From NCBI GenBank assembly GCA_015075175.1, contig JABTUV010000001.1, positions 1 through 64,000 of the forward strand: a stretch of DNA of 64,000 bases. The letters run 5' to 3'. This DNA comes from a bacterium (GTDB taxonomy: Bacteria > Hinthialibacterota > Hinthialibacteria > H5-UNCL2). A model generated the notes under the pieces. That model was not told where the DNA came from and made no database searches. It saw only the letters and a list, made by a program, of their open reading frames with translations. Position numbers and translations under genes: made by a program. Of this stretch, positions 4,666 through 60,870 are shown one piece after another (the first letter of the stretch is position 1; every line of letters begins with the position of its first letter).

Positions 4666-4683
4666 GCGGCAGCTTGCTGCCGC
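4666..4683 (+). repeat. GCGGCAGC-TT-GCTGCCGC hairpin repeat
   Basis: Perfect 8-bp stem with a TT loop, preceded by GGAGC. It is one of about nine copies in the window and lies between the TPR gene and the MNT gene. Confidence 0.85.
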
Positions 4684-4711
4684 CAGCGAGTATCGAGTTG
4701 GGAGAATCGTC

Positions 4712-5035
4712 GTGTCACCTGAGAACGTACAACAACTGCTGGAGGAGTATCGTGAGGCGCTGTCGCAGGCGCTGGGCGACCAGTTGCGCGCAGTGTATCT
4801 CTACGGTTCGCGGGCGCGGGGGGAGGCCGCGCCCGACTCCGACGTGGACGTATTGTGCGTGGTGCGCCCTCCCTTGGATTACGGCCGGTTGATCGCCGTC
4901 ACCTCGCCCTCGACCGCCGCCCTCAGCCTGAAATTCGACGCGGCGCTTTCGCGCGTGTTCGTGGACGAAGCCACCTTCCAGACCGGGGCGACGCCGTTTC
5001 TCAGAAACGTCCGGCGCGAGGCGATTGCCCTGTGA
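4712..5035 (+). CDS. MNT-type minimal nucleotidyltransferase (toxin-antitoxin-like)
   Basis: 107 residues. It has the minimal nucleotidyltransferase signature YGSRARGEAAPDSDVDVLCV (GSxARG followed by SDxD, the metal-binding carboxylates). Start GTG at 4712, with GGGAG at 4700-4704 upstream. The stop overlaps the GTG start of a HEPN gene (GTGA at 5032-5035). Such MNT-HEPN pairs act as toxin-antitoxin modules in which the MNT partner modifies (AMPylates) and silences the HEPN RNase. That role is known for the family and inferred here from context. Confidence 0.85.
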   Translation: MSPENVQQLLEEYREALSQALGDQLRAVYLYGSRARGEAAPDSDVDVLCVVRPPLDYGRLIAVTSPSTAALSLKFDAALSRVFVDEATFQTGATPFLRNVRREAIAL

Positions 5036-5418
5036 CCGGCGAGGTCCCGGAACTGCTCGCCAAGGCGCGCGAGAGCCTGGCGGCGGCCGGCCTGCTGCGC
5101 CAGGGTGGATTCCATGCGTTCGCGGTCTCGCGCGCTTATTACAGCATGTTTTACGTTGCCGAGGCTCTGCTGGCATCCTTGGGGCAGTCTTATTCGAGCC
5201 ACGGCGGCGTGCTCTCCGCCTTCGGGAGGGAATTCGCCAAGACGGGCCGCATGGATCCCAAGTTCCATCGTTGGTTGATCGACGCGCAGGATTTCCGCAA
5301 CATCGGTGACTACGACATTGGAGCCGCCGTGACCCCGGCACAGTCCGGGGAGGTTTGCGCGTGGGCGCGCGACTTCATCGACGGTGCGGAATCCTATCTT
5401 CGTACGCAGCAATCGTAA
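5032..5418 (+). CDS. HEPN-domain protein (partner of MNT)
   Basis: 128 residues from a GTG start that overlaps the MNT stop by 4 nt. Four-helix HEPN domain, with the characteristic SRAYYSMFYVAEALL helix and a second polar segment FRNIGDYDIG. Members of this family are RNases or RNA-binding toxins. The classic RxxxxxH catalytic His is not obvious here, so this copy may belong to the RN..DY subgroup or be catalytically weak. Function in the pair is inferred from gene order and overlap. Codon use and GC look like the neighbours, so there is no sign of recent transfer. Confidence 0.82.
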   Translation: MTGEVPELLAKARESLAAAGLLRQGGFHAFAVSRAYYSMFYVAEALLASLGQSYSSHGGVLSAFGREFAKTGRMDPKFHRWLIDAQDFRNIGDYDIGAAVTPAQSGEVCAWARDFIDGAESYLRTQQS

Positions 5419-5469
5419 TGCGCCGGCGATTCGACGTCCCCCCGCCGTGAACGTTCATCCCCCATCCGG

Positions 5470-5498
5470 TTGACGGCGTCTCTTCCTGTCTCTATTGT
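5470..5498 (+). promoter_or_regulatory. Sigma-70-type promoter upstream of URO-D-family gene
   Basis: TTGACG (5470-5475), a 17-nt spacer, then TATTGT (5493-5498), 33 nt upstream of the ATG at 5532. Reasonable match and ideal spacing; read from sequence only. Confidence 0.5.
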
Positions 5499-5531
5499 GT
5501 CTCACTTGCAGCAAAGACGCGAGGAGTGAAC

Positions 5532-6635: not shown

Positions 6636-6648
6636 TCCCGTAGGAATT

Positions 6649-6698
6649 GCGGCTGCTTGCTGCCGCGCGGCATGTGGAGTGCGGCTGCTTGCTGCCGC
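6649..6698 (+). repeat. Two GCGGCTGC-TT-GCTGCCGC hairpin repeats
   Basis: Copies at 6649-6666 and 6681-6698, each with one stem mismatch, the second with a GGAGT leader. They lie between the URO-D-family gene and the epimerase gene. Confidence 0.8.
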
Positions 6699-6711
6699 GC
6701 GCATCATCCCC

Positions 6712-6736
6712 CCCCGCCCCCCCTTGTTAAGGGGGG
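6712..6736 (+). repeat. CCCCCTTGTTAAGGGGGG palindromic repeat
   Basis: C-run / TTGTTAA / G-run hairpin. Related copies occur at 21411, inside a coding sequence at 46714, and at 47047. Confidence 0.75.
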
Positions 6737-6822
6737 AGCGGAGGCCGCCTTCGCAACGGCCCTTGTGGCGAGGCGTCCGCCGTCGTAACATGCTCCTCGA
6801 CTGACGCAGCGAGGCGTGGTCC

Positions 6823-8480: not shown

Positions 8481-8510
8481 TTGACGCCGCATTTCACACA
8501 TAGTGTGTAG
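8481..8510 (+). promoter_or_regulatory. Possible promoter/operator upstream of speD
   Basis: TTGACG (8481-8486) is followed by the palindrome ACACATAGTGTGT (8496-8508), which overlaps the expected -10 region. No good -10 hexamer is present, so this could be an operator rather than a complete promoter. Confidence 0.3.
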
Positions 8511-16050: not shown

Positions 16051-16247
16051 GCATGTCAACGTTAATTATTCAGGTCCATCCATGACTGACATAGGATGCG
16101 AACTCCCGCTTCTGCGCCCAGCCGCCGGCTTCGTTTTTTCCAGCTTACCTGCTTGCGGGCGCTTGTGCAGAGAGGAATACGGAGTGCCGGCGGGCGCTGC
16201 CGCCCGCAGCAGCAGCCGGTTGGGTTATCGCCCACCCACGAGCGCAG

Positions 16248-16274
16248 CTGTCATTTCGACCGAAGGGAGAAATC
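16248..16274 (+). repeat. GACCGAAGGGAGAAATC repeat, single arm
   Basis: One arm of the inverted-repeat family seen complete at 49023-49113 and 56649-56740. No opposite arm is found nearby, so this is a solo or truncated copy. Confidence 0.75.
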
Positions 16275-16344
16275 TTGCGTCACGCGCCCCTTCTTGCTAT
16301 CGTGCAGCTGCCTTCACGCCATCCACGTCGACCGGAGGAACATC

Positions 16345-18018: not shown

Positions 18019-18034
18019 CATCATAACGTGGACT

Positions 18035-18100
18035 GCGGCAGCTTGCTGCCGCGACTCGCAGTCTTAATCCTAATCGTAATCGATTACGGTCAGGATTACG
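18035..18100 (+). repeat. GCGGCAGC hairpin plus TAATCG hexamer hairpin
   Basis: GCGGCAGCTTGCTGCCGC at 18035-18052 is followed by TAATCGTAATCGATTACG (about 18074-18091), whose core CGTAATCGATTACG is a perfect palindrome. The pair fills the gap between convergent genes (araB and the 117-aa gene), where a bidirectional terminator would be useful. Confidence 0.75.
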
Positions 18101-18109
18101 AACGCGGCG

Positions 18110-21371: not shown

Positions 21372-21383
21372 CGCATGTGGACC

Positions 21384-21427
21384 GCGGCAGCTTGCTGCCG
21401 CGCGCCATCCTTCCCTTCTCAAGGGGG
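21384..21427 (+). repeat. GCGGCAGC hairpin followed by CCCTTCTCAAGGGGGGG palindrome
   Basis: Hairpin at 21384-21401, and C-run/TTCTCAA/G-run at 21411-21427. The second repeat supplies the TGA stop (21419-21421) and last residues (VAPP) of the giant minus-strand gene. Confidence 0.8.
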
Positions 21428-24400
21428 GGCGACTGGGAGCACGACGCTTTCCACAACACGCGTGGGCGCATCGCGGAAATCGCGCGACAGGATCACGGGC
21501 TGATAGCCCTCGCAAAACAGCGTCAGCGTGTACGCCTCGCGGCCCAGCGGCACGCTGTAGCGGGCGCCGGTCTTGTTGATCAGCCCGCTTTCTTCCAACG
21601 GCAGGGTGAAATCCGCCGCGTTGCGCACCGCGATATGCGCGTGCTCGACGGGATGACCCTCGTCATCCACTACGGACAGTTCCAGCACGATGCCCGGCTG
21701 CATGGCGATGTCCAGGGTAGTCGTTTCGCCGTCGCGGATGGTCGCAGGGAGCATCTGGGGCGCCAGGCCCATGCCGAGCGCCAGCACCAGCACGTCGCCG
21801 GCGGGCAGCCCGTCGATGCGGTATCTGCCGTCCGCCTCGGTCGGGACGATGTTGAGGCCCGGCAGGGCGGGCGATCCGTCGGGCCGGAAGAGCTTGAGCA
21901 TCTTGCCGGGAAACGGCTCGGCGGCGCCGTCCGCGCGCGCGATGCGTCCCGCCAGAACGCCGCCGCCTCCCAAGTGGAGCACCACGTCTTCTGTAACTTC
22001 ACCTTCCGCCAGCCTGACTTCGACCTCGTCCTGGCCGTGGCCTTCCGCGCGCGCGGTAACGAGAACCACTCCGCCGGCCAGCTCGCCTTTCTCGAAGCGG
22101 CCCTCCGCGTCGCTGCGTACCATACTGGGAAACGCCGGCATTCCGGCCGCGGGGGCGCCGGTCAGTTTGAAGTACACCTCGGCTCCGGCAATCGGCCGTC
22201 CGCCCGAGCGAGTGACCACGCGCCCGCGGATCACGCCCTCGGGCCAGGTAAAGTTGAGTTCTTTCTCCTCCTCGCGCCCCAGCGCGACCTCGGAGAAACG
22301 CAGGACCGAGAAGCCCATCGCCGTGCCTTGCAGCGTGACGTGGTACTTGCCCGCATCCAGGCCCACGAACTCATAGCGGCCCGCTTCGTCGGTCTGCGCG
22401 CTCGCCATGACGGCGTGGTTGTCCACGCCGGTGAGCATGAGGCGCGCGCCGCGCACGGGTTCCATTTCTTCGTAGTTGCGCAGCGTGCTGCGCGCGCGCT
22501 TGACAAAGCCCCATAGGCGCGCCCCCTTTTCGTCGAAATTGACTTCGGTAATCATCCCCTCTTCGACCACGGCGGTCTTGGAACCGATACCCGAGCCGCC
22601 CCCCAGCATCCCGAAGAGGTTGCGCATCACCACGTAGGTTCCCGCGGGCAGGTGGCCGCGGAAGTAATGACCCTGCCCGTCCGTTTCGACCATGCCCATC
22701 TCGGACGGCATCCCGAAACCCGAAGTGTTGGACAGGATGGTGATGCTCTCGCCGGCGATGGGGTTTCCGGCGCGGTCGCGCACGTGGCCCTCCAGGATGC
22801 CGCCCGAGAGCATCTCGACGGGAAGCTCGACCGTCCGGCCCTCCTGGACGGTCGTCTCGGCGCGGGTCGGCGCGAACCTGGGATGGAGCACGCGAAAGGC
22901 GACCTGCCCGGGAGGCAGGTACGATACGGTAGAGTAGCCCTGCGCGTTGGTGGTGGGCCCGCGCGCGCCCGCGGCGGGATCCCCGCCGGACAGAAACGCC
23001 TGCACCAGTTGCCGCATGTCTCCCTCGTCGCGGGTAATGCGGGCGCCCTCGACCGCTCCCCGCCCGCCCGCGTCACGTGGAGTCGCACCGCGCCGCCGCC
23101 CGTGAGATGAACGGTCACGTCGCGCGTCACCTGCCCGGACTTCACTTCGATGGGTTCGCTGGTGCGCGGCGCGAAGCCGTCCGCTTCGACCTTGAGTCGA
23201 TACGAACCGGCCTCCAGGTCCGTGACCTCGAATACGCCCTCGCGGCTGGAAAAGAGCTGCCCCTCGCGCGACTCGAAGGGATTGTACTGCCAGGGGTTGG
23301 GTTCATTGGCGAGGGGCGCGAGGCGGAATGAGGCGACCGGCTCGCCGCGAGAACCCACGACTTTTCCCGCGATGCAGCCCCGGGCCTCCAGTGTGATGGT
23401 GTAATCCTCCTGCGGCACATCCACGTTCGGGAAACTGCGCCGCTGCCGCTGGCCCTCAAACACCATCACCGTGTACTTGCCCGGCTTGATGTTTCTGATC
23501 TCGTAGCGACCGTCCGGCCCGCTGGTAGCGTCGCCCTGCCGCTTGTCCAGATCGGTCAGGTCCACGTTGAAGGGCTGCACCATGCCGGTAGCCAGAATGC
23601 GCGTGTTGGGCACGGAACGTCCCTCGCCGTCCACCACGCGGCCTTTCAGATACCCTTCGGCGGGGACCTCGATGGGGAGTTTCAACACCACGTCGGTGGT
23701 GTCGGCGTCGGCGGAAAGTTCGACGGTCGTCGCGCCGCCGCCGAACATGAGGCGGAGCGGATTGCGCTCGCGGGCCGCCAGGAGGTCGTAGGTCCCCGGC
23801 GGCAGCTTGGCCAGCGTGAAGCGGCCTGCCTCGTCGGTCTCGGCGGAGAGCGACGCCTCCATCTGCTCCATGCGCAGGGCGGAGGCCATGAAGTCGCCGC
23901 CGGTGCGTCCCGACACCCAGACCTTGGGCGCGGGCCTGCCTTCACCATCGAGAACCACGCCGGAGATGGAGCGGCCGCGGGACAGGCGAATCTCCACGTC
24001 GGTCCGGCTTTGGCCGGGCAGGAGATCGAAAACCTCGCTCTCGCCCAGCGCGTAATCGCGATGCCAGGCCGACAGCTTCAACGCCGATCCGGGCGAGAGG
24101 TTCTTGATCAGGAAGGCGCCGTCGGCGTCGCTGGTGGTGGGCCGGGCCTCGATCATGCGCATCACGTCGCCCATGCCCCGGCCCAGGGGACGAATCAAGG
24201 CTCCGGCGACGGGAGCGCCGGTCTCGGCATCCACCACGCGCCCCGAGGCGCACGCCCCCGTCCGCAATGCGATGCGATAGTCCGTAACGTCCTGGTCCAC
24301 GATCTCGACCACGGGCCGGTTCATGGCGCCGGGCAGGAGGTAAACGGGACTCGGATGATCCGGTTCATACTCGAGCCGAATGCGATAGAGGCCGGGCGCC

Positions 24401-25935
24401 AGGTTGGATACTTTGAACGCGCCGGACTCGTCGCTGCGGCTGTCCGCGGCGGGAATGCCTTGCCCATCCAAGCCCACCAGGAGTCCCTCGATGGGCCTAT
24501 CGGTTCCTTCCTCGACGATGATGCCTGAGAAGGAATAGCCCGGCGTAAGCACGAGGTCGGGCGCGAGACGCCTGGAGCCATCCTCCACGATCAGGCCCTC
24601 CATGAGCTTGGAGATTTCTCCCGTGGCCGTCGCTTGAAGGCCGTAACGGCCGGGGACGAGGTTCTGGAATTGGTAGCGGCCATCTTCATGCGCGGTCGCG
24701 GGTGCAGGGCTGCCGAGCTCTCGGGGCGAGCCGGCGCTGGCGAAGTCGCGGCGGTCGGGCGTGAGGACCACGGTCGCGCCGGGCGCGGGCGCGCCGTCGG
24801 CGTGGACCACGCGCCCCTCGATGGCCCCGCCACGTCGCAGCGTGATAACAACTTCTCCCGAGGCGATTGAGACATCGCGCGCTTCGCCCGTGGCGTAACC
24901 CGGCTTGGCGGCCGTCAGTCGCAATCCGCGCTCCCGGTCCACCTCCAGTTCAAAAAAGCCCGTCGCGCTCGTGACCGTCGAGCATCCTGTGGAATGCGGC
25001 TGCTTGCTGCCGCCGAGAATGCGCCGCGCATCATCCGAGCACGTGACGGTCGCGTCCGCGACGCCCGCGCCTTTCGCGTCCACGACCCGCCCGCGCACGA
25101 CCGGCAGCGGCAAGAGTTGCACGGTCGTGGCCGCGTCGAGCGCGGCGGACGGCGTGAGCGTGACGGCCTTGCTCCGGTATCCGGTCGCTGCGATCACGAG
25201 GGCCGCGTCCCACGGCGGCAGCAGTTCCAAGGTCAGGCGTCCGCCGCTGGCGTGATGGACGCGAGGCGACCAGGGCAGGGGTTCGGCCAACTCGAGGTCG
25301 GCGTCCAGCATCCGCCGGCTGCGGGCGTCTCTGATCGTGATTTCAACGCTGCGTGCGGGCACGAGCCGCAGGGGCGGCGCCTCCGTCCGGCGCGCGACGC
25401 GCACCTGCACTTTTTCAGCCGGCTTCTTTTCCGGGACCCGGCTGTCCGTCCAAGCGACGGGCGCGCCCCAGGAGTTCCCCAGGCCGCCGAGGCGGTACTC
25501 TCCCGAGGCATCCGTCACGGCGCGCCTGCCCAGGTACTCCACGGTTGCCGCGGCGATGGGTACGGCATGGCCGGCGGCGACGACTCTTCCCGCCAGCATG
25601 CCTTCACGCTGCAGGATCAGGCGCAGCGGCTCTGGACCGGCGGTGAACTTGCCCGAATAGGGCGCAAAGCCGGTCGCCTCGATGGAGAGCGCGTACTCCC
25701 CGCCGGGCGCGAGCTCTTCAAAACGGAACACACCCTCCTCGTCGGAAGTCGCCGCGCGCGCCGGTCCGGCGGGCCTGCCGAGGGGCCTCGCGACCAACCT
25801 GGCTTCGACTACCGGCTGGCCGGTAATCGTCGCTACCAGGCGCCCCTCCACGCGGGTCGAGAGCGAAGGCGGGGATTGCGCTCCGGCAAACAGCGAGAGA
25901 CCTACCAGAAGCAGCGAGAGAACGATGCGTAACAT
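21419..25935 (-). CDS. Giant secreted protein with tandem carboxypeptidase-regulatory-like (CnaB-like) domains
   Basis: About 1505 residues if one lost base is restored. Start ATG 25935, signal peptide MLRIVLSLLLVGLSLFAGAQ. The body is at least a dozen repeats of an ~80-90-residue beta-sandwich of the CarboxypepD_reg type. Each begins with a G-x-V-x-D-x-x-G-x-P motif, such as GRVVDAETGAPVAGALIRPL, SGVVLDGEGRPAPKVWVSGR and GRVVDGEGRSVPNTRILATG, and ends near F-x-x-x-x-L-x-P-G-x-Y. No peptidase domain is present. Likely a surface adhesion or stalk protein (inference). The frame breaks near 23062: one G is missing from a G-run between VTVHLTGGGAVRLHVTRAGG and ARITRDEGDMRQLV. A GCGGCTGC hairpin repeat is inserted in frame (24996-25013, encoding part of GGSKQPHSTG). 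Confidence 0.8.
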
Positions 25936-25956
25936 GCCCCGACCCCCTGTTGGAGT

Positions 25957-25974
25957 GCGGCAGCTTGCTGCCGC
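25957..25974 (+). repeat. GCGGCAGC-TT-GCTGCCGC hairpin repeat
   Basis: Perfect copy with a GGAGT leader, between the giant secreted-protein gene and the winged-helix regulator. Confidence 0.85.
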
Positions 25975-36120: not shown

Positions 36121-36165
36121 CATCGTCATCCTAATCGTAACTCGTAATCGATTCTCGATTACGAC
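36121..36165 (+). repeat. TAATCG hexamer hairpin repeat
   Basis: Copies of TAATCG/TAACTCG lead into the palindrome GTAATCGATTCTCGATTAC, between hslU and hslV. The hslV stop codon TAA (36161-36159) lies in this repeat. Confidence 0.7.
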
Positions 36166-36787
36166 TTGCGAGCCGGGTTTTTCTCCGGCGCAAGCACCTC
36201 GACCTGCAGCGAACGATTGGTGTAGATGCAGATGTCGGCGGCGATGTCCAGCGCCACGCGCACGATGGCCTCGGCGTCCAACTGCGTGTGAGCGAGCAGC
36301 GCCTGGGCGGCCGCCTGCGCGTAGGGACCGCCCGAGCCGATGGCCAAGACCCCCTTCTCCGGCTCGATCACGTCCCCGCTGCCGGAGATGATATAGGCGC
36401 CCGCCTCGTCGGCCACCACCATCATCGCCTCCAGCCGCCGCAGCATCCGGTCGGTGCGCCAATCCTTCGCCAGTTCCACCGCGCTGCGCGCCAGGTTGCC
36501 CTTGTATTCGTCCAGGCCTCAAGTTTCCAAGGCGCAAAAGCGTCCGCCGCCGCGCCCGCGAATCCACCAGCACCCGGTCGTGGTACAGTCGGCGAATCTT
36601 GGTCGCCGTATGCTTGACCACCGTCTCTCCGAAGGTCACCTGCCCGTCGCCGCCGATGGCCGTCACCCCGTCGCGACGCACGCAGACGATGGTCGTACTC
36701 TGGACCCTCTCCCTGGGGAGAGCGCGCCTTCAACCCTCTCCCCTGGGGAGAGGGCAGTGAGGGGCGTTGCGTACGCCGGCGTGTCAT
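36159..36787 (-). CDS. hslV: HslV (ClpQ) peptidase with repeat-derived propeptide, frameshifted
   Basis: Threonine peptidase subunit of HslUV. The mature start [20 protein letters not shown], the segment [20 protein letters not shown], and the C-terminal half ([40 protein letters not shown]) are normal. Between VLV and [20 protein letters not shown] bases are lost near 36510-36590. Upstream of the catalytic Thr the ATG at 36787 is followed by about 30 residues encoded largely by two CCCTCTCCC...GGGAGAGGG repeats (36704-36753). This would be an unusually long propeptide removed on activation; one base is also lost before STTIV. Normal HslV has little or no propeptide. Confidence 0.85.
36704..36753 (+). 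repeat. Two CCCTCTCCC/GGGAGAGGG hairpin repeats
   Basis: ACCCTCTCCCTGGGGAGAG (36704-36722) and ACCCTCTCCCCTGGGGAGAG (36732-36751). They lie within the hslV 5' coding part; related copies are at 35619 and 54218-54477. Confidence 0.8.
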
Positions 36788-36876
36788 GGTTGTCCTTTCC
36801 GCGCGTCCGTGTGGAGATTCGCGCCAAGGCAAACTGAAGTTTGTACCCGGACACATCCTGGGCGCGCGATGCGCCT

Positions 36877-37781
36877 CTAGACAGGCGCGGCGCAGCCGCT
36901 CCGCGTCGACCTGCGTGTATTTCTGCGTGGTGGACAGACTGGAGTGGCCCAGAAGTTCCTGGATCGAGCGCAAATCCGCTCCCGCCGACAGGAGATGCGT
37001 GGCGAAGGTATGCCGGAAGGTATGCGGGGTCGTACGCCGCATGCCCCGTCCCATCGTATGCAGGCGCACGCGTCCTGCACCCAGCGAACGGAGACGCGCG
37101 CCGCCCGCCGAGGACGAAGGCGCGGCGGGTTCGGGCGAGCTGGGCCGCAGTCCGCGCGCCGGCATGGCCGCGATCTCCCACGCCGAGGATACTCCGACAG
37201 CGCGCCGCGCCGCGCCGATGGGCAATACCTGTTCCTTTCCACCTTTCCCGTCACCCGCACCCAGTCGAGCGCGGCGGAAAGATGGTCGAGGATCGATGCC
37301 CACCAGCGTGCCCACGCGCATGCCGGTGGGTATAAGGTTCCATGATCGCCCAGTCGCGAGAAAGAGCGGGTGGCGGCGGGGCGCTGATCGAGCAGACTCT
37401 TGACATCATCCTCGGCCAGAACGCGGGGCACGCGGCGCGGCACGCCCGCAGGCGGATGCCGTCGGTCGGCGCCGCCTCCGCCCCGTCGCCTTGCAGTAAT
37501 GCCGATAGAACGCCTTCAGCGCCCCAGCTGCGATTGAGCGAGGGGCGAGAGGAAGCTCCGACAGGGCGGAGGAAGCCGCGCACGTCCAGCCGTTGTACCG
37601 CCTCCACTTCCACTTCCGGCCACTCTCCCTCGATATGCGCGGGAATCCGGCCGGCATAGGAACCCGCGTAGTAATTGAAGAACTGCGCCAGGTCGCGGCG
37701 ATGGGCGGCCAGCGTATGCGGCGAGGCGCCCCGCGTGCGCCATCTGCGCCAGGAAATCTTCACCGCGTTCTCAGCCTTCAT
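36877..37781 (-). CDS. xerC: XerC-type tyrosine recombinase, frameshifted
   Basis: Chromosome dimer resolution recombinase by synteny (topA-xerC/codV-hslV-hslU is a classic order). Fragments in several frames: core-binding part [19 protein letters not shown] and [22 protein letters not shown], then the catalytic box [20 protein letters not shown] with R and [19 protein letters not shown] with the nucleophile Tyr, and [12 protein letters not shown]. The catalytic residues visible are intact. At least four indels are needed. The 3' end is uncertain; after LRR the reading runs into a CAAACTGAAGTTTG repeat at 36830-36843. Confidence 0.82.
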
Positions 37782-37834
37782 CGTAATCGTGCTCGTAATC
37801 GTGCTCGTAATCGTAATCGATTACGATTACGAGA
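37782..37834 (+). repeat. TAATCG/TGCTCG hexamer array with hairpin
   Basis: Alternating TAATCG and TGCTCG hexamers end in CGTAATCGATTACG, a perfect palindrome extending to CGTAATCGTAATCGATTACG. It fills the topA-xerC gap. Confidence 0.8.
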
Positions 37835-40318
37835 TCAGGAGCAGACAGGCTGAAGCCTGTACTCCGTTAGGACTTCTCCGCGGCCACGCCGATGGCGCGC
37901 CTGTACTGCGCAGCCCTTCGTCGCGCAGGCCAGGTGCGGACCGTCCTTCTTGGTGTTCTTCTCCACCAGATACGGCGCGCCGCAGTCCGGGCACTTCTCC
38001 AGTACCGGCTTGTTCCAGGCTACGAAGTCGCAGTCGGGATAACGATTGCAGCCGTAGAACACTTTGCCAAATCGTGATCGCCGCTCCGCCAGCTGTCCCG
38101 TACAGCCTTGCTTCGGGCACGGCACGCCGATGCTGATGCCCTTGGTGTTCTTGCACTTGGGATAGGCCGAGCAGGCCAGGAAGCGCCCGCCCTTCCAGGT
38201 GCGCACGACCATGGGCGAACCGCACTTGTCGCAGACTTCGTCGCTCGGTTCGACGACGGCGACCGGCGCCGCATGGAACAGCCCCTCCGTCTCCTCGGCG
38301 GTGGCCGGCCGGCGGAAGCCGTCCTCGGGACACTCCAGGACGAAGCGATAGCGCTCCCAGCGCCGCACCAGCTTGTGCCCGTCTCTGGGGCAGCGCGCCT
38401 CCACCAGCTCCGGCTCCACTTTCACCGGATGCGCGATGTTCCGGGTCTCCTTGCAGTCGGGATAGCCCATGCAAGACAGAAAAAAACCGTTCTTGCCCCA
38501 CTTGACCTGTAAATGCTTGCCGCAGGAGGGGCAGACCTCGTCGGTGGGCGTCTCCAACTGCGTGACGGCGGCGTGAATCTTCTCGCGCGCCTCCTCGACC
38601 GCCTGCTTGAAGTGGCCGTGATAGAACTCGTCCAGCGTCTCCTGCCAGGCGATGCGGCCCTGCTCGACGTCGTCCAGTTCGTCCTCCATGTGGGCGGTGA
38701 ACTCGACCTGCACGGTCTCGGGAAACGCCTTGCGCAGCACCGCGTCCGTGACTTCTCCCAGATCGGTGCAACGGTAGGCCTTGTTCTCGCGGGTCACGTA
38801 TTTCTTGTCCAAGAGCGTCTTGATGATGGTGGCGTAGGTGCTGGGGCGGCCGATGTCGCGCTCCTCCAGCTCCTTGATGAGGGAGGCGTCGTTGTAGCGC
38901 GCGGGCGGGCGCGTGAAGTGCTGTTTAGGCTCGATGCCCGCGGTCGAAAGCACCTGCCCTTCCGACACTGCCGGCAGGAGGCGATCCTCGCGCTCCATCT
39001 CGTATACCCGCGTGAAACCGTCGAACTCGACTACCAATCCGTTGGCCCGCAGCTTCATGCCGTCCATGCTGAAGTCGATGGAGGTCGCCGTCTGCCGGCA
39101 CTCGGCCATCTGGGTAGCCACGAAGCGCTGCCAGATGAGCGTGTAGAGCGCCAGCTGATCCTTGGTGAGGTGTCGCTTGAGCTTGTCGGGCGTGCGCGAC
39201 ACGTCGGTGGGACGGATGGCCTCGTGCGCGTCCTGGGCGGTGGACTTGACCTTGAAGCGCCGCTCGGAGGGAGAAAGATATTTCTCGCCGTAGGCCTTCT
39301 TGACGTGGGCGCGGGCGGCGGCGATGGCCTCCTCCGCCATGCGCACCGAGTCGGTACGCATGTAGGTAATCAGGCCGACGGCCTCCTGGTCCAAGTCCAC
39401 GCCTTCATACAGCGACTGAGCGACGCGCATGGTCCGATCGCCGGAGAAGCCCAACCGCCGCGCGGCGTCCTGCTGCAGGGTGCTCGTGATATAGGGCGGC
39501 AGCGGCTGGCGGCGCTTGGGGGTGGTGGTGATTTTGTCCACCGTGGCGCGGCCGGTGGCCAGGCGGGCCGCCAGCGCGCGCGCCTCGTCCTCGGAGGCGA
39601 TGACATGATAGCCCTTCTTGCCGACCTCCTCGGCGCGGTCGGCGACCTTGCGCCCGTCCACCTCGACGAGATCGGCGACGACCGTTTCGCCGCCGTCGGT
39701 CGCCAGATGCGCCTCCAGCGACCAGTACTCCTCGGGGGTGAACTGCAGGATTTCCTCCTCGCGGTCGCGGATGAGGCGGAGGGCCACGCTCTGCACGCGC
39801 CCGGCCGACAGCCCCTGCTTGATGCGGCGCCAGAGAAGCGGGCTGATCTGATAGCCCACCAGCCGGTCCAGGATGCGCCGCGCCTGCTGGGCGTAGACTT
39901 TGTTCATGTTGATCTTGCCGGGATGTTGGATTCCGCGCAGGATGGCGTCGCGGGTGATCTCGTTGAACATGATGCGATGCACCGCGCCGCCGTTTCCCCG
40001 CGCCGCGGACGACAGCATCTCCGCCAGGTGCCAGCTGATGGCCTCGCCCTCGCGGTCGGGGTCGGTCGCCAGGAAGATGTCGCCGCATTCCCGCGCCGAC
40101 TTTTTCAGCGCCTCCACGGACTTTTTCTTGTCCGGGCTGACTTCGTAGACCGGCTCGTAGCCGCGCTCCAGGTCGACGCCCAGCTGCCGCGGCGGCAGGT
40201 CGCGCACGTGTCCGTTGCAGCTGACGACCTTGTAATCCTTGCCCAGAATGCCGTTGATGGTGTGGGCCTTGGCCTTCGACTCCACGATCACCAGCGACTT
40301 TTGCTTGCCTGCAGCCAA
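37835..40318 (-). CDS. topA: DNA topoisomerase I
   Basis: 827 residues, type IA topoisomerase that relaxes negative supercoils. TOPRIM at the start (SLVIVESKAKAHTINGILG, ATDPDREGEAISWHLAEM), active-site Tyr in LITYMRTDSVRMAEEAI, and three to four C-terminal zinc ribbons (CPSCGKHLQVKWGKNGFFLS, CDKCGSPMVVRTWKGGRFLA, CPKQGCTGQL, CPDCGAPYLVEK). Start is TTG at 40318 with GGAGGAG (40328-40322), giving MAAGKQKS. The last residues (EYRLQPVCS) are encoded by a CAGGCTGAAGCCTG dispersed repeat, so the C-terminus was extended or replaced by the repeat. Intact frame, unlike its operon partners downstream. Confidence 0.96.
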   Translation of the reverse strand: MAAGKQKSLVIVESKAKAHTINGILGKDYKVVSCNGHVRDLPPRQLGVDLERGYEPVYEVSPDKKKSVEALKKSARECGDIFLATDPDREGEAISWHLAEMLSSAARGNGGAVHRIMFNEITRDAILRGIQHPGKINMNKVYAQQARRILDRLVGYQISPLLWRRIKQGLSAGRVQSVALRLIRDREEEILQFTPEEYWSLEAHLATDGGETVVADLVEVDGRKVADRAEEVGKKGYHVIASEDEARALAARLATGRATVDKITTTPKRRQPLPPYITSTLQQDAARRLGFSGDRTMRVAQSLYEGVDLDQEAVGLITYMRTDSVRMAEEAIAAARAHVKKAYGEKYLSPSERRFKVKSTAQDAHEAIRPTDVSRTPDKLKRHLTKDQLALYTLIWQRFVATQMAECRQTATSIDFSMDGMKLRANGLVVEFDGFTRVYEMEREDRLLPAVSEGQVLSTAGIEPKQHFTRPPARYNDASLIKELEERDIGRPSTYATIIKTLLDKKYVTRENKAYRCTDLGEVTDAVLRKAFPETVQVEFTAHMEDELDDVEQGRIAWQETLDEFYHGHFKQAVEEAREKIHAAVTQLETPTDEVCPSCGKHLQVKWGKNGFFLSCMGYPDCKETRNIAHPVKVEPELVEARCPRDGHKLVRRWERYRFVLECPEDGFRRPATAEETEGLFHAAPVAVVEPSDEVCDKCGSPMVVRTWKGGRFLACSAYPKCKNTKGISIGVPCPKQGCTGQLAERRSRFGKVFYGCNRYPDCDFVAWNKPVLEKCPDCGAPYLVEKNTKKDGPHLACATKGCAVQARHRRGRGEVLTEYRLQPVCS

Positions 40319-43045: not shown

Positions 43046-43067
43046 CTTCCCTTGTTGGCGACTCTCG

Positions 43068-43113
43068 GAGTACAGGCTTCAGCCTGCAGAAGCAAACTAA
43101 AGTTTGTACTCCG
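43068..43113 (+). repeat. Composite GGAGTAC hairpin pair
   Basis: GGAGTACAGGCTTCAGCCTG (43068-43087), a short linker, then CAAACTAAAGTTTGTACTCC (43093-43112) make head-to-head copies of two stem variants, the whole being a large palindrome. Sits between scpA and guaA. Confidence 0.85.
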
Positions 43114-45689: not shown

Positions 45690-45707
45690 GCGGCAGCAAG
45701 CTGCCGC
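45690..45707 (-). repeat. GCGGCAGC hairpin repeat, reverse orientation
   Basis: GCGGCAGCAAGCTGCCGC followed by ACTCC, that is the GGAGT leader on the minus strand. Between convergent genes. Confidence 0.85.
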
Positions 45708-45723
45708 ACTCCCTAGGGCGCGC

Positions 45724-47682
45724 TCAGCGAGGCGGAGGGGCCAGGTTGCCCTCGAGCGCGGCGCGGGGCTGCAGGTACGGATCGTAGAGATAGAAGCCAT
45801 CCAGCGCCAGCGGCGGCCCGCCGCCCGGCGCCGTCCACTCGATCAGCACGATGCCGGCCTTGACCGTCCCCACGGGAACCTCGTGGAGGCGCCAGTGCTC
45901 CATGCGACTCCCGTCGCCGCCGGTCGATTCAAGAAGCAGCGGGTGCTCGACTTCGCCGCCCGGATGGGTGAGGCGCAGCACGAGATGGGCCGGGCCGGTG
46001 GCGTCCAGGGCATAGCGGAGCGCCAACCGCAGGCCGTCGCGGGTCGCCGGGAAACGCAGAGCGGCCAGCGCCAGCGCGCCGGGATGCTGGAAACCCCAGA
46101 GACACGCGCCGCGCGAAGTGGTGGACGCGAAGTCGGGCAAACTGAAGTTTGTACTCCAAGTACTCAGGGAAGCGCCCGTCACGTCGGCGCAGTCTTCCGC
46201 TTCCATCCAGAGCCAGCCGGGTCCGCGATGCGGCGGCTCCTCCACGCGCGCCAGCTCCTCGCCGGTGGGTCGGCGGCGCGTAGGCACATCCGGGTCCAAC
46301 GGCGCGGGATCGTCCGAATCGAGCACCCCGTCGCCGTCGCTGTCGGCGAGAAAAGGGTTGGTTCCGCGCAGAAGTTCGAGCGCGGTCGGCCAGGCGTCGC
46401 CGTCGTCGCGCTCCGGCCAGTCGGAGGGAGCCGGCGTCTGCCACCAGTGACCGCGTTCGCGCGCCAGCAGAATCGCGCCCGTCGCGCTGCGAACCGCCCG
46501 CGGCGCGACGTTGGCCAGCGAAGCCACGCCCAGACTGGCCCGCCCGCGCCCATCGACCGAGACCGAGAGACTTGCGGGTTGGTGGGGGATGAAGGTTATT
46601 CCCTCGGTTGAGGAGAGACCGACCAGAAAGGCGGAGACGCCCGAGACAGGGTCCAGGGTCTTGCCGGCAGCCAGAGGTGCGACGTGGACGCCGGGAAGCG
46701 CAAATCCCCCCCGGACCCCCTTGTCAAGGGGGGGGAGGACGCCGGCGTCGCCGGGGCCGCCGCCGTGCCAGGTGAGGGTTCTGGGTCCGACCACCCCGAC
46801 CGCCGTTCCCCAGCGCGCCAGCATCCCATCGTCGCGTCCCAGGTAGGTGTGCGCGTAATGGATGGTCAACCGGCCCTCGCGGTCCAGCGCGATGCGCTGG
46901 GCGGAGAGGAACTCGACGTAGGCGGGCCAGCCCGAGCGGGAGAAGCGCCACGAAGTGCGCCAGACGCCGCCGACTTCGGCCGGTTCGTCGATGACCCGTT
47001 CGAGTACCGTTTGCGGCGGCTCGGCCTCGCCGAGCTCCAATCCGCGCCCCTCCCTTAACAAGGGGGGATGGGGGGGATGAAAAGCGTCGAACCGGCCGAG
47101 CGGCGCGACCTCGAGCGCGGGTCCGAACAGGTTGAGCAGGCCGCCTTCGTACTCGAGGCGGAGCAGTTGGCCGGTGTCGCGATTCAGCGTGAAGGTGACG
47201 CCGGCGGCGGAGAGGCGCCATTGATCGCCGACTTGCGCGCGCCGGGGCGGCGGGCGCCGGGATGCGACCGGCCGATCCTGCGAGGAGAGGACGGGAAGCG
47301 AACAAGTCCCCACGACTTCGTGAGAGGGATTGCGGATGGTCAGATGCACAAAGGCGGCGTCGGTCGCGTAGTCGTCGCGCGCGCGCAGCGTGAGGCGGGC
47401 GCGCCCTCCCGGCGGAGTCGCCGGCAAGGCCAGCGTCTCGCCGCCGATTTCCGCGCCGTCCTTGCCGTCGCGCCAACTTATTTGCAGGTAATAACCCAGA
47501 AGGTCCAGGCTATCGTGGCGGTTCTCGATCTCGATGGGTTGTGGAGTGCGGCTGCCGGCCGCCGCGTCGGGAGCGCCGTAAAAGCGCACCGCCTCGTCCA
47601 GGATGCGCACGGGGCAGCCGTGCGCGCCCGCCGCGCCGGCAAGCCAACCCACCAGGCTGAGAAGAAGACAGAAAAGCCGCAT
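45724..47682 (-). CDS. Large secreted protein with calcium-binding repeat and three embedded DNA repeats
   Basis: 652 residues from ATG 47682, signal peptide MRLFCLLLSLVGWLAGAAGA. The segment LADSDGDGVLDSDDPAPLDP is a thrombospondin-3-like calcium site. The remaining beta-rich sequence has no recognised family. At least three dispersed repeats are read in frame: C-run palindrome at 47047 (HPPHPPLLREGRG), another at 46714 (PPLDKGVRGGF), and CAAACTGAAGTTTG at 46138-46151 (WSTNFSLP). The protein has no frameshift, so the insertions were of in-frame length. Probably exported to the surface; role unknown. Confidence 0.75.
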   Translation of the reverse strand: MRLFCLLLSLVGWLAGAAGAHGCPVRILDEAVRFYGAPDAAAGSRTPQPIEIENRHDSLDLLGYYLQISWRDGKDGAEIGGETLALPATPPGGRARLTLRARDDYATDAAFVHLTIRNPSHEVVGTCSLPVLSSQDRPVASRRPPPRRAQVGDQWRLSAAGVTFTLNRDTGQLLRLEYEGGLLNLFGPALEVAPLGRFDAFHPPHPPLLREGRGLELGEAEPPQTVLERVIDEPAEVGGVWRTSWRFSRSGWPAYVEFLSAQRIALDREGRLTIHYAHTYLGRDDGMLARWGTAVGVVGPRTLTWHGGGPGDAGVLPPLDKGVRGGFALPGVHVAPLAAGKTLDPVSGVSAFLVGLSSTEGITFIPHQPASLSVSVDGRGRASLGVASLANVAPRAVRSATGAILLARERGHWWQTPAPSDWPERDDGDAWPTALELLRGTNPFLADSDGDGVLDSDDPAPLDPDVPTRRRPTGEELARVEEPPHRGPGWLWMEAEDCADVTGASLSTWSTNFSLPDFASTTSRGACLWGFQHPGALALAALRFPATRDGLRLALRYALDATGPAHLVLRLTHPGGEVEHPLLLESTGGDGSRMEHWRLHEVPVGTVKAGIVLIEWTAPGGGPPLALDGFYLYDPYLQPRAALEGNLAPPPR

Positions 47683-49018: not shown

Positions 49019-49022
49019 GCAG

Positions 49023-49113
49023 CTGTCATTTCGACCGAAGGGAGAAATCCTCCCCCGCGCTTCCAGCAGCGCCCGGCCGGTATCGCAGGATTTCTCCCTT
49101 CGGTCGAAATGAC
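49023..49113 (+). repeat. Complete GACCGAAGGGAGAAATC inverted-repeat element
   Basis: Left arm 49023-49049 and right arm 49088-49113 (GATTTCTCCCTTCGGTCGAA) are near-perfect inverted copies around a GC-rich 38-nt centre, in the nifJ/pyrD-like gap. Confidence 0.9.
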
Positions 49114-49156
49114 ATACGATCACGATGACGAATCGTAATCGGTTGCGCCTTGTATC

Positions 49157-54201: not shown

Positions 54202-54217
54202 GAGCGCCTTCTTCAAC

Positions 54218-54477
54218 TCTCCCCGTGGGAGAGGTGTTGTCCCCTCTCCCTGAGGGAGAGGGTTAGGGTGAGGGGGCGCGACGCGCAACGGCTTCCCCTC
54301 ACCCGGCGCTTGCGCCGACCTCCCGTGGAGAGGTGAAGATGCGCGCTTCGCGCCGACCTCTCCCGTGGAGAGGTGTTGTCCCTCTCCTGAGGAGGGTTAG
54401 TGAGGGCGCGACGCTGGCAAGCTCCCTCACCGGCGCTTCGGCCGACCTCTCCCGTGGGAGAGGTGAAGATGCGCGCA
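54218..54477 (+). repeat. Cluster of CCCTCTCCC/GGGAGAGG repeats
   Basis: At least four hairpins of CTCTCCCGTGGGAGAGG or CCCTCTCCCTGAGGGAGAGG type in tandem, separated by related spacers (GAAGATGCGCGC and CACCGGCGCTT recur). They fill the 295-nt gap between the HEAT and GND-repeat genes. The second half repeats the first with small deletions. Confidence 0.85.
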
Positions 54478-54496
54478 GCACGCTGCGCAACCGCAC

Positions 54497-56404: not shown

Positions 56405-56648
56405 GTTTCTCTTGGTCTCAGCGCGGGCATGACGCGCGAAGCCGGGCAAAGAAAAAAAAGGAGCCGCTGGATCATGGACGTTCCCGTCGGCAGCGCACTC
56501 CGGCCCTTTTAGACCTTTGCGAAGTTAGTCACGGCCTCTCCGATTGTCAATTGGAATTGCGGTGTGGGAGCGGCTGCAAGCAAACGCGGCCGCGAATGCG
56601 GTGGTACGCAAGTCCGTCGCTTGGCGCCTGAGGATGGGCCAAACGTCG

Positions 56649-56740
56649 CTGTCATTTCGACCGAAGGGAGAAATCTTACCCCGCATCTCTCGATCGCCCG
56701 GAGCCAGACCCCGGACTTCTCCCTTCGGTCGGAATGACAG
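56649..56740 (+). repeat. Complete GACCGAAGGGAGAAATC inverted-repeat element
   Basis: Left arm 56649-56675; right arm (ACTTCTCCCTTCGGTCGGAA) 56714-56740. The right arm and centre form the 3' coding end of the DUF971 gene. Confidence 0.88.
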
Positions 56741-57041
56741 CGTCAGCCCAGTCGCGGAGCATCTGGAAGGTGTAGATGCCCGCGTCGTGGCCGTCGCTCC
56801 AGAAGATTTTGATTCCGTAACGGCCCACGGGTGCGGTGCGTTGAACGTGCACCTTTTCGAGAATGGAGGGGGGAATGAAGCGATCCGGCCCCAGTTCCTC
56901 GCGTTGCCGGCGGCAGACGGCGCAGGGGCAGGCGCGCCGCAGCGCCGTCTGTTGAAAGACCGTCTCGCGTCCGTCGCTCCAGGTGATCCTCAAGAGCTCG
57001 CTGCCGGTGTAGTCCACGCTGCGGGGAGGGGGGGCGGGCAT
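56676..57041 (-). CDS. DUF971-domain protein with repeat-derived C-terminus
   Basis: 121 residues from ATG 57041. DUF971 (gamma-butyrobetaine-hydroxylase-like N-terminal) signature: LLRITWSDGRETVFQQTALR, ACPCAVCRRQ with paired Cys, GRYGIKIFWSDGHDAGIYTF. Such proteins bind metal or Fe-S clusters and are linked to Fe-S and polyamine-like metabolism; the precise role is not known. The domain ends at MLRDWAD; the following AVIPTEGRSPGSGSG and beyond is encoded by the inverted repeat. Start overlaps the leuD 3' region closely (stop 57046 to start 57041), so co-translated. Confidence 0.85.
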   Translation of the reverse strand: MPAPPPRSVDYTGSELLRITWSDGRETVFQQTALRRACPCAVCRRQREELGPDRFIPPSILEKVHVQRTAPVGRYGIKIFWSDGHDAGIYTFQMLRDWADAVIPTEGRSPGSGSGRSRDAG

Positions 57042-57609: not shown

Positions 57610-57613
57610 CGTA

Positions 57614-58268: not shown

Positions 58269-58433
58269 GAAACGCCCCTCTCTCTTTATGCTTTGATTCT
58301 GCCACGCCGTCCCCCCTGGCGTCAATTGCCGCGGGCGTTGTTTCCCTCTTGCCAGGCGCCCTTTGCCGCGCGACAATGGGGTGGTGCCGCAACGCTATCC
58401 GCTCGATCAATTCACCCCAAGGAGGAGTGGATC

Positions 58434-58718
58434 ATGGCGACGTTCATGATGTTCGGCAAGTACAGCGCGGAGGGGTTGAAGGAGGCCAGCGCGGACCGCA
58501 CCAAGAAGGCGGTCAAGCTCGCCAAAAAGTACGACGGCAAAATCACCGCCATGTACGCGCTCTTGGGCGAGCACGACCTTCTGCTCATCACCGACTTCCC
58601 CGACGGGGTGGCGGCGATGAAGGCGTCGATTGCGCTGGGCAAGATGACGGGCATCTCGTTTTCCACCCTGCCCGCCGTGCCGGTGGAAGAGTTCGACAAG
58701 ATGCTGGAAGAAGCGTAG
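58434..58718 (+). CDS. GYD-domain protein
   Basis: 94 residues, a single dimeric alpha-beta barrel-like GYD domain: MATFMMFGKYSAEGLKEASA, YALLGEHDLLLITDFPDGVA. Function of GYD proteins is unknown. Very strong Shine-Dalgarno AAGGAGGA (58419-58426) suggests high expression. Monocistronic. Confidence 0.88.
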   Translation: MATFMMFGKYSAEGLKEASADRTKKAVKLAKKYDGKITAMYALLGEHDLLLITDFPDGVAAMKASIALGKMTGISFSTLPAVPVEEFDKMLEEA

Positions 58719-58832
58719 GGTGCGCACCGCGCACCAACGCGCAGTCCCGGCTATTCCGAAGCACAGGCGACCTTAGGTAGCACGGGCATTGCTGCCCGTG
58801 TCGGAGAGGGAGGCCCGTGCCGCCACCGGCGC

Positions 58833-58850
58833 GCGGCAGCAAGCAGCCGC
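58833..58850 (-). repeat. GCGGCAGC hairpin variant, reverse orientation
   Basis: GCGGCAGCAAGCAGCCGC followed by AGTCC; one stem mismatch. Downstream of queA. Confidence 0.75.
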
Positions 58851-58858
58851 AGTCCATA

Positions 58859-59896
58859 TCAGACGATCAACATGGCGTCGCCGTAGGAGTAGAAGCGATA
58901 GCCGGCGGCGATGGCCGCCCGGTAGGCGGCCAGCACGCGCTCGCGGCCCGCGAACGCGGCGACCATGGCCAGGAGCGTGGTGCGCGGCAGATGGAAATTG
59001 GTCAGCATCGCGTCGACGCCGCAAAAGCGGCGCCCGGGCAGGATGTAGAGGCGCGTGCGCCCGGCGGAGGGGTGAAAAACGCCCTCTTCATCCACGACTG
59101 TCTCCAGGGCGCGCGTGGTAGTCGTGCCGACGGCGACGATGCGCCCGCCGGCCGCCCGCGTCTCCGATAAAGCTGCAACCGCCTCTTCGCTCACTTCGTA
59201 GCGTTCGGAATGGATGACGTGATCCTCCATTTCTTCGGTCAGGACGGGCCGGAAGGTGTCCAAACCGACGTGAAGGGTGATCTCGACCAGGCGCACGCCG
59301 CGGCGCGTCAGGGCGGAGAGTATCTCGGGCGAGAAGTGGAGTCCCGCCGTGGGCGCGGCGGCGGAGCCGGGCACGCGCGCAAACACCGTCTGGTAGCGCT
59401 CACGGTCGCGGGCATGGTCCCGCCCCGCCGGACGCCGGATGTAGGGCGGCAGCGGCACGCGGCCCACGCGCGACAACAGCTCCATCCAGTTGCCGTGAAG
59501 CGTGAAGCGTACGGCGAACTGGCCGTCGCCCAGCTCTTCTTCGACCGTGGCCGTCACGTGGGAGTCGATGTCGATCTCTGCGCCGGGCCGCAGGCGGCGC
59601 GCGCGCTGCGCCAGCACCTTCCAGCGCTGTTCGCCCAAGTCCTCCAGCAGCAGCATCTCGATGCGCGCCCGTCCGCCGCGCTTGTGTCCGAACAACCGCG
59701 CCGGTATCACCTGCGTGTTGTTGAGGACGAGCGCGTCCCCCGGCTGCAATAGTTGCGGCAGGTCGCAAAAGACTCGATGTTGCAGCGAGCCGTCGGCGCG
59801 CGACAGGACCAAGAGCCGCGACTGCCCACGGTCGGGCGTCGGCTCCTGCGCGATCGCGCCTTCGGGCAGCTCGTAATCAAAGAGCGAAACCTTCAT
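58859..59896 (-). CDS. queA: tRNA preQ1(34) S-adenosylmethionine ribosyltransferase-isomerase
   Basis: 345 residues. Transfers and isomerises the ribosyl group of SAM to preQ1 in tRNA, giving epoxyqueuosine. Typical start FDYELPEGAIAQEPTPDRGQ, ALVLNNTQVIPARLFGHK, AAPTAGLHFSPEILSAL, HVGLDTFRPV and TNFHLPRTTLLAMVAAFAG. ATG 59896 overlaps the upstream gene stop (ATGA), so queA is coupled to a secreted-protein gene, an odd partner. Other queuosine genes are not in the window. Confidence 0.95.
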   Translation of the reverse strand: MKVSLFDYELPEGAIAQEPTPDRGQSRLLVLSRADGSLQHRVFCDLPQLLQPGDALVLNNTQVIPARLFGHKRGGRARIEMLLLEDLGEQRWKVLAQRARRLRPGAEIDIDSHVTATVEEELGDGQFAVRFTLHGNWMELLSRVGRVPLPPYIRRPAGRDHARDRERYQTVFARVPGSAAAPTAGLHFSPEILSALTRRGVRLVEITLHVGLDTFRPVLTEEMEDHVIHSERYEVSEEAVAALSETRAAGGRIVAVGTTTTRALETVVDEEGVFHPSAGRTRLYILPGRRFCGVDAMLTNFHLPRTTLLAMVAAFAGRERVLAAYRAAIAAGYRFYSYGDAMLIV

Positions 59897-60870
59897 CGTT
59901 CCCCGCGCCCGCCGGTGGAGAAGCTGCACTCCACCCGTTCCTCGACGACGACCGGCTGCGGTCCCAGTTCTCCCGGCTTGAAGCGGATCACGAAGACCTC
60001 GCGCTCCAGGTAGATCAGCATGGTCGAGGGGTCCAAGATGCGCTCGCCCCAACCGGTGATTTCCGACTCCTTAACCTGCGTCGGGGGAATGAAGGGAATC
60101 TCCCAGGTCGCCGAACGGGGTTCGGGCGTACTGTGATAGAAGAATTCGAGCCGCACGCAGTCGTGGTCGGCGCAGCGGAGTTTTTCCACCAGTTTTGTCG
60201 TAATGTGAAAGACCAGCCGGCGGTCGCCGGGCAGAAGGTATTCGTCGGAGACGCGCCAGCTGTCGCCCAGCTTGCCGCGCTTGCCGACCATGCGGCCGTA
60301 GCGCTGGTCCCAGGCCTCCCGCCGCTCGCGGCGGTAGTTCTCTTCGCGCACCACCAGCGGCACGCGGGGATCGTCCGGTTGCATGGAACGCGCGCGCACC
60401 ACCAGCGCCGCCAGGCCGTCGATCTCCCGGAGGCGTCCCACCATGTCCAAGTGGTACTGGAGGGGAACCTGGTTAAACAAGGCCAGCCTCAGATCGAAGG
60501 TCGGGGTGCCGTCGCGCGCGGCTTGGTAGGCGACCTGAGTAGCGGCGTAGACGTAGCCCGTAGGTTGGCTGTGATAGGCGACCTCGGTGAGCGTCTCTTT
60601 GCGGTCCACGTGGCCGCCCGCGTCGGGCCGCTCCGCCCGCCGATGGGAGATCAGCCGCTCCTGGCGCACCAGCCCGTCGGGCGGGTTCCAGCGGAAGAAG
60701 ACCTCGTCCTCTCCCCGGGCCGCCAGGCACAGGCACAACCAACATGCGGCCAGGCTGAAGCCTGTACTCCGGAGTACAAACTTCAGTTTGCGTCCGAGCA
60801 GGCTGAAGCCTGTACTCCGGAGGCGTTGCGCCGGAGCGCCCGGCCTACGGCGAAAGCATGGTAGCTTCAT
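59893..60870 (-). CDS. Secreted WNPPDG-family protein, signal peptide built on DNA repeats
   Basis: 325 residues. Start ATG 60870 with AAGGGA. The N-terminal 55 residues (PGAPAQRLRSTGFSLLGRKL, KFVLRSTGFSLAACWLCLC) are largely encoded by three GGAGTAC hairpin repeats, yet still make a basic then hydrophobic export signal ending LAARG. The mature part starts FFRWNPPDGLVRQERLISHR and is a paralogue of the next gene (same FxWNPPDG start and GERxxDPxTxxIYxERE end). Family not recognised. Coupled to queA by ATGA. Confidence 0.75.
   Translation of the reverse strand: MKLPCFRRRPGAPAQRLRSTGFSLLGRKLKFVLRSTGFSLAACWLCLCLAARGEDEVFFRWNPPDGLVRQERLISHRRAERPDAGGHVDRKETLTEVAYHSQPTGYVYAATQVAYQAARDGTPTFDLRLALFNQVPLQYHLDMVGRLREIDGLAALVVRARSMQPDDPRVPLVVREENYRRERREAWDQRYGRMVGKRGKLGDSWRVSDEYLLPGDRRLVFHITTKLVEKLRCADHDCVRLEFFYHSTPEPRSATWEIPFIPPTQVKESEITGWGERILDPSTMLIYLEREVFVIRFKPGELGPQPVVVEERVECSFSTGGRGER
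60751..60812 (-). repeat. Three GGAGTAC hairpin repeats in a coding sequence
   Basis: CAGGCTGAAGCCTG at 60751-60764 and 60799-60812, CAAACTTCAGTTTG at 60777-60790, joined by TACTCCGGAGTAC. Both stem variants stand side by side in alternate orientation. Confidence 0.9.

Follow-up and report, generated by a model that had tools for sequence, protein, structure and literature searches.

Hairpin repeats with a GGAG head in a Hinthialibacterota genome: very probable REP elements of several families, two of them beside a RAYT gene on other contigs

What are the short hairpins with GGAG-type leaders that recur along contig JABTUV010000001.1 (assembly GCA_015075175.1) of a bacterium of the phylum Hinthialibacterota, and what spread them? 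The DNA analysed, positions 1 to 64,000 of the forward strand of this contig, is called the window here. A sequence-only reading of it had listed hairpins between positions 4666 and 60,812, all of which are present where they were listed, and had joined them in a single superfamily, suggesting elements like repetitive extragenic palindromes (REPs) that are moved by a REP-associated tyrosine transposase (RAYT). We consider it highly probable that these hairpins are REP elements with a RAYT, that several REP families are co-resident in this genome, and that the cognate RAYT of one of them, family A, is encoded on contig C5. As REPs, the hairpins would be short repeats of the non-autonomous kind: they would fold when the DNA is single-stranded, and the RAYT (TnpA_REP) would recognise, cut and rejoin them.

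Family A hairpins consist of a GGAGTA head, a 6-bp stem (CAAACT, CAGGCT or CAAGCT) and a 2-nt TY loop. In 864 kb of the genome, a perfect stem of at least 6 bp comes after the leader GGAGTA at 25 of its 289 occurrences (0.8 expected) and after GGAGTG at 9 of 380 (1.0 expected), the expected counts being the mean over all hexamers; the further leaders GTAGTT, CGTAGG and GGTAGG are also strongly enriched before stems and belong to other REP families. The family A pattern GGAGTRCNNRCTTNAGYNNG has 145 matches genome-wide and its reversed control none, and it matches 0–1 times per genome among 60 other genomes, all from outside the taxonomic family to which the window's genome belongs. GGAGT[AGT] precedes 57 of 71 family A stems, the sequence 5' of GGAG is C or GTTY, and 61 of the 71 copies are intergenic in a genome that is about 80% coding, as judged here and for the other families with a simple home-made gene caller.

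Pairing was measured without bias at sites picked by GGAGT and the loop-proximal CT..AG alone, and the other four stem pairs were all formed in 61 of 81 such sites versus 3 of 174 with permuted leaders. Two-sided (covarying) changes occupy 30 cells over 34 distinct family A rows, a number reached by none of 500 shuffles, and pairing falls from 81% to at most 54% when the partners are slid one to three columns. A cross-species alignment of the same plan, in which five rows from the window's genome were hand-picked as typical types and the remaining rows come from RAYT flanks, shows pairing in 95% of its cells and change on both sides in 51 instances. The covariation of family A is real, and the compensatory stem change claimed from the window holds for this family; the palindromic REP stem with freely varying paired letters is found in A and in part in family B (below), which has T·T mismatches.

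The genome carries three Y1 genes, two found by a Pfam Y1_Tnp search and the third by a profile search. A gene of this kind, which the sequence-only reading had proposed to look for, lies on C5 (G000:C5:16318-16974, 219 aa) within a nest of family A hairpins that stand on both sides of it (GGAGTWCAAACT / GGAGTACAAGCT), several as complete inverted pairs; family A alone flanks it. The protein has the Y1 HuH domain with its HuH, W and Y---N motifs (NHYH at 103-106, W144 and NYIHNN around Y164) and scores above the Pfam Y1_Tnp cut-off. Its best PDB sequence match is 4ER8 (E 0.0014), and its AlphaFold 2 (AF2) model, with a predicted local distance difference test score (pLDDT) of 85, has a RAYT fold that matches 4ER8 best (Z 15.5, 2.8 Å over 153 residues) and IS608 (Z 9.3) and ISDra2 next, 4ER8 being the E. 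coli RAYT structure. The C5 locus is a textbook REPtron, and fold, family match and the hairpin-flanked homologues described below all support the RAYT reading, from which we infer cleavage and movement. The family A hairpins were very probably spread by the C5 protein, a small single-strand DNA transposase whose activity is predicted. It presumably reads the head as a guide sequence, and along with it the invariant loop-proximal CT-TY-AG and whether a stem is there; the outer letters of the stem would be free provided that pairing is kept.

The replicating unit of family A would be the REPIN (REP doublet forming a hairpin), with heads outward, mostly an 8-nt spacer, and CAAACT joined to CAGGCT or CAAGCT. 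In 1.66 Mb of the genome, taken as stretches, there are 19 heads-out family A pairs, spread over 14 separate places, with the near-constant spacer of REPINs (8 nt in 12 pairs, 9 in 3, 6 in 2, and 30 and 60 in one each). None of the 19 has two like stems: most combine CAAACT with CAGGCT, and those near the C5 RAYT combine CAAACT with CAAGCT; random stem pairing gives a mean of 12.4 heterodimers of 19 and reaches all 19 at P about 2e-4. Family A neighbours in the same orientation are homotypic in nine of ten cases. The heterodimer rule recurs in an unrelated genome reached via a RAYT relative (27/30, P < 1e-5) and in a further genome (10/11, P 0.02), and heterodimers occur in 21 of the 31 RAYT loci whose pairs could be scored. 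The stem differences within family A are those of heterodimeric REPINs, not random or free drift. Folded as one long hairpin, real REPINs have a mean energy of -9.9 versus -24 to -25 for artificial homodimers, and the separately folded form lies near -5 to -6 for real and artificial units alike (energies computed with 5-bp stems and 4-nt loops, the folding model having no score for 2-nt loops). Two different stems would weaken the collapse of a REPIN into one long hairpin, and we infer that they serve the separate folding of its two hairpins.

Two complete family A REPINs, both intergenic, lie in the window. The first, at 43067..43112, is a heterodimer of GGAGTACAGGCTTCAGCCTG (+), a 6-nt spacer and inverted GGAGTACAAACTTTAGTTTG (-); the second, at 60771..60818, is made of GGAGTACAAACTTCAGTTTG (+, 60771-60790), an 8-nt spacer and inverted GGAGTACAGGCTTCAGCCTG (-, 60799-60818), and is abutted by another family A REP with a CAGGCT stem (60751..60770, -), which makes a small cluster like a bacterial interspersed mosaic element (BIME). 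Singlets with a CAGGCT stem (37846..37865, -) and a CAAACT stem (46138..46157, -) are within called open reading frames (ORFs). The leader, stem and 2-nt loop previously described for these sites are as claimed at 37846, 43067/43073, 43093, 46138, 60751, 60771/60777 and 60799, and fail in the leader at 36830..36849 (-), where the CAAACT stem is intact and the leader has decayed to GGGTAC.

The second family in the window, family B (TNTGGASTGCGGC), has the leader T-N-T-G-G-A-(G/C)-T over 54 copies. Its two main forms have 58 exact copies genome-wide and none in 20 other genomes, and 43 of 51 copies are intergenic. A T·T mismatch (GCGGCTGC...GCTGCCGC) is present in about half of them, and the variation is one-sided, A and T alternating on one side only, which rules out covariation of family B within this genome. 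Perfect stems are found at 4658..4683 (+; a GCGGCAGC stem with leader TATGGAGC), 18027..18052 (+; CGTGGACT), 21376..21401 (+; TGTGGACC, within a called ORF), 25949..25974 (+; GTTGGAGT) and 45690..45715 (-; TAGGGAGT), and T·T mismatches at 6641..6666 (+; decayed leader TAGGAATT), 6673..6698 (+; TGTGGAGT), 24988..25013 (+; TGTGGAAT, within a called ORF) and 58833..58858 (-; TATGGACT); a diverged B-like copy, GGAGTGCGGCTGCCGGCCGCCGC, lies at 47543..47565 (+). The leader GGAGTGC that had been given for these hairpins is exact at three of the nine sites (6681, 25957 and 45690), the others reading GGAGC, GGACT, GGACC, GGAAT or GAATT.

Could A and B nonetheless be variants of one superfamily mobilised by the same C5 RAYT, as the single superfamily first proposed would have it? 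Both begin GGAG-T, both are abundant, and the assembly yielded no RAYT of the clade that accompanies B-type hairpins elsewhere. That clade emerged from a scan of GTDB genomes with a RAYT alignment, which gave 80 loci: most loci of one strongly supported RAYT clade (support 98*) have TWTGGAGTGCG hairpins with diverse paired stems in their flanks. RAYTs so flanked occur in 13 phyla or more, among them Chloroflexota, Verrucomicrobiota, Lentisphaerota, Armatimonadota, Hydrogenedentota, Zixiibacteriota, Acidobacteriota and Pseudomonadota; homologous RAYTs of many phyla have flanking hairpins with the same leader and different paired stems; several clade-B RAYT genomes hold many TWTGGAGTGCG-type copies, and in a Hydrogenedentota genome (L079) the clade-B RAYT is flanked by exactly GGAGTGCGGCAGCTTGCTGCCGC. 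A-type and B-type hairpins elsewhere flank two well-separated RAYT clades, the upstream leaders differ (TWT before GGAG in B, C or GTTY in A), and only A flanks the C5 RAYT. On these three grounds we reject a common superfamily as improbable: A and B are alike in design yet are separate families of two different RAYT lineages. Family B is best read as a REP family, older or orphaned, that belongs to a second lineage of RAYTs with a wide distribution among other phyla, its own RAYT having been lost or lying within the missing part of the assembly, because clade-B RAYTs elsewhere are flanked by B-like hairpins and none was found here.

The window also holds two families with the canonical GTAG head that were absent from the earlier reading. 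Family C has a REP at 22472..22493 (+; head GTAGTT, stem GCGCAGC, loop GT, GCTGCGC) and a second with the same stem and a decayed head, GCGGTT, at 54473..54494 (-); family D has one at 58715..58735 (+; GTAGGGTGCGCACCGCGCACC). In the 1.66 Mb there are 43 copies of family C (GTAGTT, then GCGCAGC) and, for family D (GTAGG, then GTGCGC), 43 copies plus 16 of the paired-change variant GTGGGT; 37 of 43 C copies and 55 of 59 D copies are intergenic. High copy number and a mainly intergenic position, both REP properties, are thus seen here, with 145 copies of A and 58 exact copies of B genome-wide and families 84–93% intergenic. Family D REPs (GTAGGGTGCGC...) stand on both sides of a second Y1 transposase gene, L170 (G000:C3:4202-4660, -, 205 aa), whose product has the E. 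coli-like motif RFWEHTLR and YIHYNP; L170 with family D is a second REPtron, and the pattern of one RAYT to one REP is repeated within the genome. With A beside the C5 gene and D beside the C3 gene, two REP families or more are each accompanied by a RAYT of their own; family B flanks a RAYT in other genomes only. The third Y1 gene, L001 (G000:C46:238062-238388), has long inverted repeats (AAAATTAGGGTCAGCGCCTAATTTT) in its flanks and resembles the type associated with terminal inverted repeats of Di Nocera 2013 (PMC3733652).

A function at the RNA level, in which the hairpins would be intrinsic terminators or mRNA stabilisers kept for the sake of transcripts rather than mobile DNA, would fit their intergenic position, their hairpin-forming sequence and their scarcity between divergent genes (5/61 for A, where 22% of spacer bases lie, and 2/55 for D). 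Against it, no T-run or conserved tract follows the stem and the leader precedes it, the window has no Rfam match except a tRNA, and terminators would not be expected to form inverted pairs with heads outward or to flank a Y1 transposase gene. The missing T-tract rules out the terminator reading in particular, and we regard RNA-level elements as very unlikely, while a secondary terminator or mRNA-stabiliser role may exist. Least probable of all are elements of an ordinary DDE transposon like miniature inverted-repeat transposable elements (MITEs), whose terminal inverted repeats would be the palindromes: these too would be dispersed, genome-specific and paired in inverted orientation, but single REPs with an asymmetric leader stand alone and in tandem, head and loop are constant and the stems vary without loss of pairing (a covariation that largely contradicts this idea), and the flanked gene encodes a Y1 HuH enzyme.

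Several observations weigh against the REP/RAYT reading or parts of it. The C5 protein reaches 74.3 bits (E 9e-21) with NCBIfam REP_Tyr_transpos, slightly below the curated cut-off of 80. A profile search of the assembly, which is 84% complete, found no clade-B RAYT, and family C is likewise without a RAYT there, so the link to a RAYT depends on relatives for B and on the GTAG head for C. A Verrucomicrobiota genome has CAAGCT paired with itself, though its CAAACT mostly joins CAGGCT; heterodimery is not obligatory everywhere, because this CAAGCT variant makes homodimers. Lastly, even a heterodimer usually reaches its lowest energy when folded as the long hairpin.

REPs, REPINs, RAYTs and heterodimers are already known, but a GGAG head does not fit the GT(A/G)G and CGTC consensus given in the papers cited here. 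The REP head is defined as GT(A/G)G (PMC2817692, PMC3686654, PMC6006769), most often GTAG (Corneloup 2021, PMC8266576), and other tags are CGTC (PMC3733652) and, for class 3, CnGA (PMC6006769). Families C and D have such a GT(A/G)G head; A (GGAG) and B (TNTGGA(G/C)T) do not, and so work like REPs yet fall outside the narrow definition. GGAG as a REP head is unmentioned in the texts PMC2817692, PMC3686654, PMC6006769 and PMC3733652, which are open-licence literature and no proof of novelty, and a literature string search for GGAGTGCGG gave nothing relevant. With the GTAG/GTGG systems (Nunvar 2010, PMC2817692; Nunvar 2013, PMC3686654; Corneloup 2021, PMC8266576) the families here share the 5' tetranucleotide, variable palindromic stem, short loop, high copy number, intergenic position, flanked Y1 transposase and one RAYT per REP type, and differ in the head, GGAG in A (position 2 T to G) and TNTGGAST in B. 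The family A pairs resemble the REPINs of Bertels and Rainey 2011 (PMC3116915) as two inverted REPs with heads outward and a near-constant short spacer in a foldable unit, but their stems differ in all 19 pairs and the spacer is 6–9 nt in 17. Homodimers and heterodimers were described by Di Nocera 2013 (PMC3733652), where heterodimers were suggested to escape hairpin nucleases; that survey already included Verrucomicrobia and Planctomycetes, with GTAG and CGTC tags only, and GGAG is absent from its text.

The C5 RAYT, compared by description, may be close to TnpA_REP subclass 2.8 (Quentin 2018, PMC6006769; NHYH motif, about 199 aa, YIH-NP-like motif): it has HYH and YIHNN, and cyanobacterial relatives (L064, L066-L068) fall next to its clade, a well-supported group of 22 rows holding both. 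Subclass 2.8, with motifs NHYH and YIHYNP and GT[AG]G heads, was reported as cyanobacterial only in that sample, with related sequences elsewhere (PMC6006769), whereas the C5 clade has GTAG, GGAG or GGTG heads in its flanks in Acidobacteriota, Verrucomicrobiota and Planctomycetota (each head was chosen among six candidates, in some cases from just two copies). Positions corresponding to E. coli 100/101/104, among those said to contact GTAG (Quentin 2018, PMC6006769), are D-R-R in 10 of 10 GTAG-headed RAYTs and 2 of 42 GGAG-headed ones; a link of D-R-x-x-R to the head is offered as a hypothesis only, because the tree holds just 2–3 independent contrasts. Corneloup 2021 (PMC8266576) proposed and tested that head bases select the cleavage dinucleotide, A3G4 selecting CT, and a GGAG head should therefore still permit CT cutting. 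Somewhat short of an even chance, in our estimate, is the wider proposal that GGAG REPs form a third, hitherto unlisted superfamily beside GTAG and CGTC, with HYH-type RAYTs in at least 13 phyla, head base 2 read by the equivalents of 100/101/104, and REPINs keeping their stems different for separate folding. Two genomes of the scan deserve separate mention: a Verrucomicrobiota genome (G069, locus L056) has 52 GGAGTTCARRCT-type REPs with family A stems, including CAAACT/CAGGCT heterodimers, although GTAG heads flank the RAYT found in it, and a 9.1 Mb bin recorded as Candidatus Nealsonbacteria (G068, L063), with a Planctomycetota-like RAYT and 81 REP copies, is probably mislabelled or mixed.

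Other repeats share the window. Copies of TGTCATTTCGACCGAAGGGAGAAATC lie at 16244-16285, 49019-49114 and 56645-56742, those at 49024/49087 and 56647/56714 being inverted pairs with 28–29 nt arms 35–38 nt apart; they make up a unit like a MITE or a REPIN that belongs to a further family. Palindromic TCGTAATCGTAATCGATTACGATTACGA repeats (36142-36164, 37768-37833 and 18055-18106) are a separate AT-richer family; CCCTCTCCC(n)GGGAGAGGG palindromes (35619-35639, 36734-36754 and 54217-54464, with a cluster at 54.2–54.5 kb) are another dispersed family, present elsewhere on C1 too; and a tandem 12-nt repeat, GAGCAAGATTAA, of about 7 units lies between ORFs at 2075-2182.

Because the published automatic surveys consulted here sought GTAG/GTGG (or CGTC) heads, they may have overlooked a REP class of wide occurrence together with its transposases. 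The natural head switches among GTAG, GGAG and GGTG in one clade make the reading of a guide by a domesticated transposase directly testable, and the heterodimeric REPINs do the same for the question of why such elements persist and are not cleared as long palindromes.

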